NCBI GenBank assembly: GCA_016213945.1
Contig: JACQZF010000080.1
Location: 1-59,655 of the forward strand
Direction of reading: 5' to 3'
DNA: 59,655 bases
From: Nitrospirota bacterium
Lineage (GTDB): Bacteria; Nitrospirota; Thermodesulfovibrionia; UBA6902
Shown here: positions 58,713 to 59,120 of the stretch, piece after piece
Layout: each line of letters opens with the position of its first letter
How positions within the stretch are numbered: the stretch's first letter is position 1
Made by a program: the position numbers and the translations under genes
The notes under the pieces: model-generated
What the model was told of the DNA's origin: nothing
Databases searched by the model: none
Seen by the model: only the letters and a program-made list of their open reading frames with translations

Positions 58713-58738
58713 GTCGGAATATCTTACTTTCTGTCGGA
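58713..58738 (+). promoter_or_regulatory. Paired GTCGGA boxes (enhancer-like), second site
   Basis: GTCGGAATATCTTAC starts at 58713 and GTCGGACATCCTTAC at 58733, 20 bases apart, 13 of 15 bases identical. TGTCGGACA in the second box is nearly palindromic. It lies 65-90 bases upstream of the sigma-54 promoter. Confidence 0.55.
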
Positions 58739-58802
58739 CATCCTTACATTTTAAAGAGACCCGTAAAAATCACTATTATTTAATATTAAATGGTTGCAAA
58801 CC

Positions 58803-58818
58803 TGGCAGATGATTTGCA
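58803..58818 (+). promoter_or_regulatory. Sigma-54 promoter upstream of the last gene
   Basis: TGGCAGATGATTTGCA with GG at 58804-58805 and GC at 58816-58817, ten bases apart, almost the same as the promoter at 47064. Transcription should start near 58830. Confidence 0.75.
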
Positions 58819-58948
58819 TAATATTTCAAAGTTTAGGGGATTGAGCGTAATCCATCAGGGTGTAACGAAAGAGGGGATTCTTTTTTTCCTCATAATTAAT
58901 AAAGCTGTATTGTCTTTTGAAGGGGAGTGCTTGTGGAATTAAAATTGC

Positions 58949-58981
58949 ACAGACAGACAGACAGACAGACAGACAGACAGA
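58949..58981. repeat. Tetranucleotide microsatellite (ACAG)8
   Basis: 33 bases: eight full ACAG units and one extra A. Long pure tetranucleotide repeats are rare in bacterial chromosomes except at phase-variable loci. Confidence 0.98.
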
Positions 58982-59012
58982 TTTAGTCTCTTATCAGAAA
59001 AATAATATAAAC

Positions 59013-59050
59013 AAAAAGGGCGTTCCGGTTTTTCGGAACGTCCTTTTTGT
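59013..59050 (+). terminator. Strong hairpin with T-tract upstream of the last gene
   Basis: AAAAAGGGCGTTCCG (59013-59027) pairs with CGGAACGTCCTTTTT (59034-59048), one G-T pair, six-base loop. Both strands end in T5, so it can act in both directions. It ends 70 bases before ATG 59121. Confidence 0.85.
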
Positions 59051-59120
59051 TGTATCAAGATTGTCATTTCCATGCAAACGGAATCCGGAATATAAAATAC
59101 ATAATTCATAGGGGGAAGCA

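Follow-up and report, generated by a model that had tools for sequence, protein, structure and literature searches.

An ACAG-repeat leader as a candidate phase-variable transcription attenuator before a surface-protein gene of a Nitrospirota bacterium

Phase variation has been studied mainly in host-associated bacteria. In the tetranucleotide contingency loci of Haemophilus and Neisseria, slipped-strand changes of four bases shift the reading frame, the repeat usually lying within the gene itself or its promoter. The closest described counterparts of the locus considered here are the pil1 and pil3 loci of Streptococcus gallolyticus, in which the number of GCAGA repeats changes the length of a leader peptide. 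Low pilus expression is associated with peptides that end at least 28 nt before a premature terminator, high expression with those whose end lies beside, within or beyond it; expression rose when the terminator was deleted and fell when the leader start was destroyed (Danne et al. 2014, PMC3894217). As far as the literature searched shows, such a repeat-in-leader attenuator is so far known from this one streptococcal species. A second precedent concerns the promoter: a 17-nt motif with the 3' end TTTACA, located 32–92 nt before a -24/-12 site, precedes PEP-CTERM genes, the distribution of motif 1/motif 2 sites matches the presence of PrsR, and the site was found only in Proteobacteria (Haft 2006, PMC1569441).

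The window analyzed here is a stretch of 59,655 nucleotides that forms one entire contig (C60) of a 3.5 Mb draft genome. Judged from its sequence and its relatives, the element preceding the surface-protein gene in this window would be a phase-variable, translation-dependent transcription attenuator, a reading to which we assign a probability of roughly three in four. A phase-variable attenuator at this place had already been proposed by a sequence-only reading, with repeat-dependent RNA folding as the mechanism. The comparison supports the attenuator well, and points to reading-frame control of the leader peptide instead of repeat-tuned folding.

Leader anatomy and terminator

The spacer (58693–59120) separates a TatD-like gene (57889–58692) from the surface-protein gene, the TatD-like gene being co-oriented with both the spacer hairpin and the surface gene (Table 1). 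That a secreted or surface protein follows the spacer was borne out by the signal peptide encoded from 59121; the FlgD Ig-like match of this protein is weak (PF13860, E 4.9e-6, 26.9 bits versus a cut-off of 27). The family-library scans covered the proteins of the window, and protein names at other loci are readings of their sequences. No Rfam family scored above cut-off in the window region or in six further loci, with two sub-threshold matches elsewhere in locus L082, and a plasmid collection gave no match.

Table 1. Features of the spacer and the adjoining gene (window coordinates)
Feature	Position	Strand	Remarks
Two GTCGGA boxes	58713..58748 (boxes at 58713, 58733)	+	sequence
Sigma-54 promoter TGGCAGATGATTTGC	58803..58817	+	GG-N10-GC; expected transcript start about 58828-58830
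Shine-Dalgarno (SD) AAGGGGAG of leader ORF	58920..58927	+	sequence; family-wide purine peak -13 to -8
Leader ORF, 8 repeats, GTG 58933 to TAG, product MELKLHRQTDRQTDRQI*	58933..58986	+	predicted OFF frame
(ACAG)8 array	58949..58980	+	pure; stop-free in all three frames
Alternative leader end, 9 repeats	58987..59111	+	ORF through terminator to TAG 59109-59111; frame open to 59111
Intrinsic terminator stem-loop, then T-rich sequence; putative attenuator	59015..59046	+	folding -21.2 kcal/mol
Putative controlled gene: secreted protein, signal peptide	59121..59654	+	contig end truncates gene; weak FlgD-type Ig-like match

The paired GTCGGA boxes, the near-perfect GG-N10-GC promoter, the pure ACAG repeat and the strong terminator, a hairpin followed by a T-rich tract, are all present as the sequence-only reading had described them; absent from its description was the leader ORF that contains the array. 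The anatomy of this leader, its frames and its terminator are established by sequence and comparison. With eight repeats the leader stop falls 28 nt before the terminator stem. Seven repeats bring the end of the ORF to 9 nt before the stem; nine carry it across the terminator, to a stop 9 nt short of the surface gene's ATG. The predicted states at the window locus are thus OFF with 8 repeats and ON with 7 or 9.

A homologous leader layout, RTG-GCA-N6-YTG-C, is found in about 80 loci. In these leaders the positions -13 to -8 before the start are 72–90% purine and 0–9% C, an SD match of at least 4 occurs in 79% versus 47% of shuffled sequences, and the base preceding the TG of the start is A in 34, G in 13, T in 3 and C in 7 cases (A/G/T in 50/57). 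The purine peak, the SD enrichment and the start-base preference indicate that the leader is translated. The third and fourth codons of the leader are freely variable. Since GGCA and YTGC were part of the pattern used in the collection scan, the constancy of these bases in that subset is by construction. A second sigma-54 promoter at 58934 (GG-N10-GC), with the array as the initial transcript, was considered and rejected because GGCA-N6-TTGC reads as leader codons (start base A/G, SD in register) and because most copies have a promoter further upstream; the GG-N10-GC adjoining the array is most likely leader coding sequence. In loci L065, L067, L084, L085, L091, L099 and L160 a conserved start-stop ATG-GGG/GGA-TAA (or TAG) with a good SD stands just before GCAT..TGC(ACAG)n. 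Within this sub-group (L065, L067, L085, L091, L160 and others) the array is, by its sequence, not obviously translated, which is awkward for the translation model.

Recurrence, promoters and target genes

BLAST of positions 58700–59120 against 101 genomes (the source genome and relatives) matched 31, mostly over leader, array and terminator. A search of 84,980 species genomes for exact occurrences of GGCANNNNNNYTGCACAGACAGACAG yielded 62 stretches, a few of them inside unrelated genes, from Nitrospirae/Thermodesulfovibrionia, Geobacteraceae, Desulfuromonadales, other Deltaproteobacteria, Nitrospinota, Smithella, WOR-3 and scattered others; named genomes with close copies are mostly Thermodesulfovibrionia/Nitrospirae. 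The unit of promoter, SD, RTG-GCA-N6-YTG-C, ACAG array, terminator and co-directional gene recurs about 80 times in Nitrospirota, Geobacterales/Desulfuromonadales and others, with several copies per genome. Of 150 relatives, 32 carry (ACAG)5 and 3 carry (CAAT)5, the control. Seven further ACAG loci, new to the set, include six with the expected form of the leader start and some without a terminator.

In 58 of 84 copies, but in only 0–2 of 84 shuffled ones, the array is followed at 25–62 nt by a hairpin with a T-run; the copies share ancestry, and shuffles overstate their independence here as in the other comparisons of this kind. No recognizable intrinsic terminator is seen in 26 of the 84 loci (about 30%).

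The source genome itself holds a second copy (L002 / L110, C54:67348-67404, n=5) with the sigma-54-like site GGCATGATTGTTGC upstream. It precedes a gene for a secreted LPDTGQTKCY-type protein, a type also encoded after the arrays of L082, L087, L107 and L199. Several contigs (G006:C258, G007:C11, G006:C119, G050:C132/C178) stop at or within about 60 bases of an array, an outcome to be expected from mixed copy numbers or from repetition of the array within a genome.

A sigma-70-like promoter (at least 9/12 match) lies upstream in 44 of 81 non-redundant copies versus 15 in shuffled sequence. Sigma-54 sites are above chance family-wide, being found upstream of 4 of the 81 leaders (the window locus L001, L002, L052 and L165) versus 0.07 in shuffles; in L002, L052 and L081 the sigma-54 site takes the position that sigma-70 has in other loci. 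These counts indicate that promoter type changes between copies while leader and terminator persist.

At the window locus the second GTCGGA box is part of a 17-mer, TGTCGGACATCCTTACA (58732–58748), which fits the text description of the PEP-CTERM "motif 1" (PrsR box). Its length and the 54 nt from its end to the sigma-54 site TGGCAGATGATTTGC match the published text; its 3' hexamer is CTTACA, not TTTACA. One PrsR above cut-off is encoded in the genome (profile search, TIGR02915, 634.9 bits on C74, cut-off 502.6), and two PEP-CTERM-type genes, one at 47134 in the window and one on C73, show the same arrangement with 63–66 nt from motif 1 to the sigma-54 site. The first of these is preceded, within 46874–47078, by a GTCGGA pair, TGTCGGGTATCTTTACA (46982–46998) and the sigma-54 site TGGCAATGAATTTGC (47064), the gene itself spanning 47134–47871; the C73 gene (L190) is arranged likewise, and its encoded sequence ends in a PEP motif. 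The motif-1-like 17-mer and its spacing, the genomic PrsR and the similar promoters of the PEP-CTERM genes make PrsR control of the window's surface gene via the GTCGGA boxes likely.

In 67 of 73 loci the gene that follows runs in the same direction, usually at a distance of 50–450 nt; an N-terminal hydrophobic segment is present in 47 of the 67 proteins these genes encode. The targets, named from their sequences, include repeat-rich secreted proteins, lipoproteins, chemotaxis proteins (CheW-, CheR/CheB- and MCP-like), hybrid histidine kinases and response regulators. The proposed role as a switch for matrix proteins is therefore only part of the picture: the element does precede surface and secreted proteins, but sensors, chemotaxis proteins and lipoproteins are targeted as well.

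Frame control and competing explanations

The proposed mechanism begins at the sigma-54 promoter, which, probably activated by PrsR at the GTCGGA boxes, would yield a leader mRNA with a short ORF carrying the ACAG array. Slippage by one 4-base unit in the cell would shift the frame in which the ribosome leaves the array. With 8 repeats, the assembled state, the ribosome would halt 28 nt before the terminator, so that the hairpin forms and the surface gene stays silent. With 7 repeats it would halt beside the terminator and with 9 it would translate through it; either way the hairpin would be kept open and the surface gene transcribed.

The family allows this scheme to be examined statistically. 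A frame was called OFF if its stop lies at least 20 nt before the stem, and ON if it lies at most 12 nt before the stem or beyond it, the final thresholds having been set after reading the S. gallolyticus paper (PMC3894217). Both an OFF and an ON frame are available in 95% of 43 non-redundant loci versus 65% of shuffled ones, with 0 of 400 shuffles reaching that value, and the result is stable at redundancy cut-offs of 50%, 60% and 70% and in both data subsets. The number of frames open right through the terminator, the statistic tested first, is not above chance (0.70 vs 0.67), and the candidate rule of exactly one frame open through the terminator was rejected as likewise not above chance; only the pairing of early and late stops exceeds it. 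Assembled states are mixed (26 OFF, 23 ON, 4 intermediate). Copy numbers among leader loci range from 3 to 19 and cover all residues modulo 3, n = 2 mod 3 being commonest (38/89). The copy-number comparison comprised only three locus pairs with alike flanks, one of which differs (7 vs 14).

Variants of the unit bear on the same question. Two relatives that belong to a different family combine this layout with a (CAAT)n array: L203 reads ATGGCACGCAATTTGCGAT(CAAT)11, and L205 has a TTGACA promoter, an SD and ATGGTTATTGCT(CAAT)9, then a membrane-protein-like gene. The sequence of the repeat unit would thus not be what matters. L200 (758–2599) joins an (ACAG)22 leader in frame to the beginning of a PAS-type sensor ORF, which by its sequence makes this locus a contingency gene acting directly at translation; the leader frames now present in L117 and L145 continue into the downstream ORF. 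The CAAT layouts and these in-frame fusions are in keeping with frame control but not with sequence-specific recognition of ACAG. L203 and L204 (genomes G050 and G047 carry L203, L204 and L205) both break off at the array and resemble the two halves of a single broken locus. Elsewhere, in L071, L075 and L076, an ACAG array (8, 11 and 11 units, all 2 mod 3) lies near the end of a TPR-like reading frame with a continuation in another frame, possibly a phase-variable protein end.

The competing hairpins suggested from the letters were not confirmed, RNA 58828–58948 folding no better than its shuffles (z +0.54); the excess in 58828–59050 (z -5.28) is consistent with the terminator. RNAalifold of 34 aligned copies recovered the terminator stem as the only conserved structure. 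A folding rheostat, in which repeat length would tune the structure as the sequence-only reading had it, was rejected, the predicted terminator fold being identical for 4 to 12 repeats, and so was sequestration of the SD by the post-array tail, whose pairing is not above that of permuted pairs (p 0.80). A short YCUUA/CCUGA-like motif recurs at about +8 to +13 after the array in many loci across phyla; no pairing partner for it was found. It is unlikely, then, that the repeat acts as RNA or DNA, be it as a site for an RNA-binding protein, a rheostat or a length spacer: the strong preference for ACAG over the one control unit, the persistence of arrays in the ATG-GGG-TAA sub-group and the recurrent YCUUA-like motif would suit such a role, but neither the fold predictions nor the SD/tail pairing do, lengths of 3–19 units are tolerated and a CAAT variant exists.

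An independent gene for a small RNA or micropeptide, equipped with promoter and terminator and followed by a gene served by another promoter, would account for the promoter and strong terminator of most copies, their multiplicity within genomes and the recurrent RQTD peptide. The sequence-only reading had entertained the small RNA, which the co-directional next gene in 67 of 73 loci, usually 50–450 nt away, disfavors; moreover, the C-terminus and length of the peptide change with n, CAAT can substitute for ACAG, and the leaders of L117, L145 and L200 run in frame into the downstream ORF, so that this explanation seems improbable. Least credible of all is an inert array and leader, with sigma-54/PrsR alone controlling the gene and the hairpin serving as the ordinary terminator of the upstream gene. 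The hairpin does have T-rich flanks on both strands, the upstream gene is co-oriented and PrsR-type sites would drive other surface genes here, yet the order and spacing of leader and terminator are conserved in about 58 loci of several phyla and most copies have a promoter between the upstream gene and the hairpin.

Significance and relation to known systems

Beyond the single locus, the data moderately favor an undescribed, multi-phylum family of exchangeable repeat-leader attenuators that would randomize many surface and sensory genes independently in environmental bacteria. Here it would be layered on PrsR/sigma-54 control, so that the promoter would determine if expression is permitted in a cell and the repeat in which cells it takes place. 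If this holds, contingency-locus bet-hedging is common in groundwater and sediment Nitrospirota and in Geobacter relatives and extends to chemotaxis and signal-transduction genes. Since the state of a locus would be readable from its repeat number, long-read metagenomes would give ON/OFF population frequencies directly. The label "undescribed" given to the element needs qualification: the mechanism has been shown genetically for S. gallolyticus pil1/pil3 (PMC3894217), while the open papers searched yielded no description of the ACAG family or of switches of this kind in these phyla.

In contrast to the Haemophilus and Neisseria contingency loci, the repeat here sits in a separate leader ORF, although L200 is a direct fusion. 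With trp-type leader-peptide attenuators the element would share the principle that formation of an intrinsic terminator depends on where the ribosome stands on a leader ORF; here, however, repeat number and frame would decide, not codon-specific stalling. Similarity to the PEP-CTERM PrsK/PrsR system (PMC1569441) lies in a motif-1-like 17-mer box ending in TTACA, a -24/-12 site after it and a secreted protein, the genome concerned having PEP-CTERM genes, exopolysaccharide genes and a single PrsR that scores above cut-off. Here a putatively phase-variable leader lies between promoter and gene, and the contig ends within the surface gene.

The parallel with S. gallolyticus pil1/pil3 is the closest. 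Both systems comprise a promoter, an SD, a short leader ORF with a tandem repeat not divisible by three, a premature intrinsic terminator and a surface gene, read here from the sequence. In both, one frame stops well before the terminator and the others stop beside, in or past it; the window, at 28 nt, 9 nt and through, shows the pil1-type pattern of one stop at least 28 nt before and the others beside or past. The element differs in its tetranucleotide unit, ACAG (or CAAT) instead of GCAGA and mostly in 3–19 units, in its distribution over environmental Nitrospirota, Desulfuromonadales and others with several copies per genome, in its unrelated surface, lipoprotein and sensor targets, in its conserved leader start and, at the window copy, in its sigma-54 promoter. 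It is thus likely a new, widespread variant of the S. gallolyticus-type switch, placed here under a PrsR/sigma-54-type promoter.
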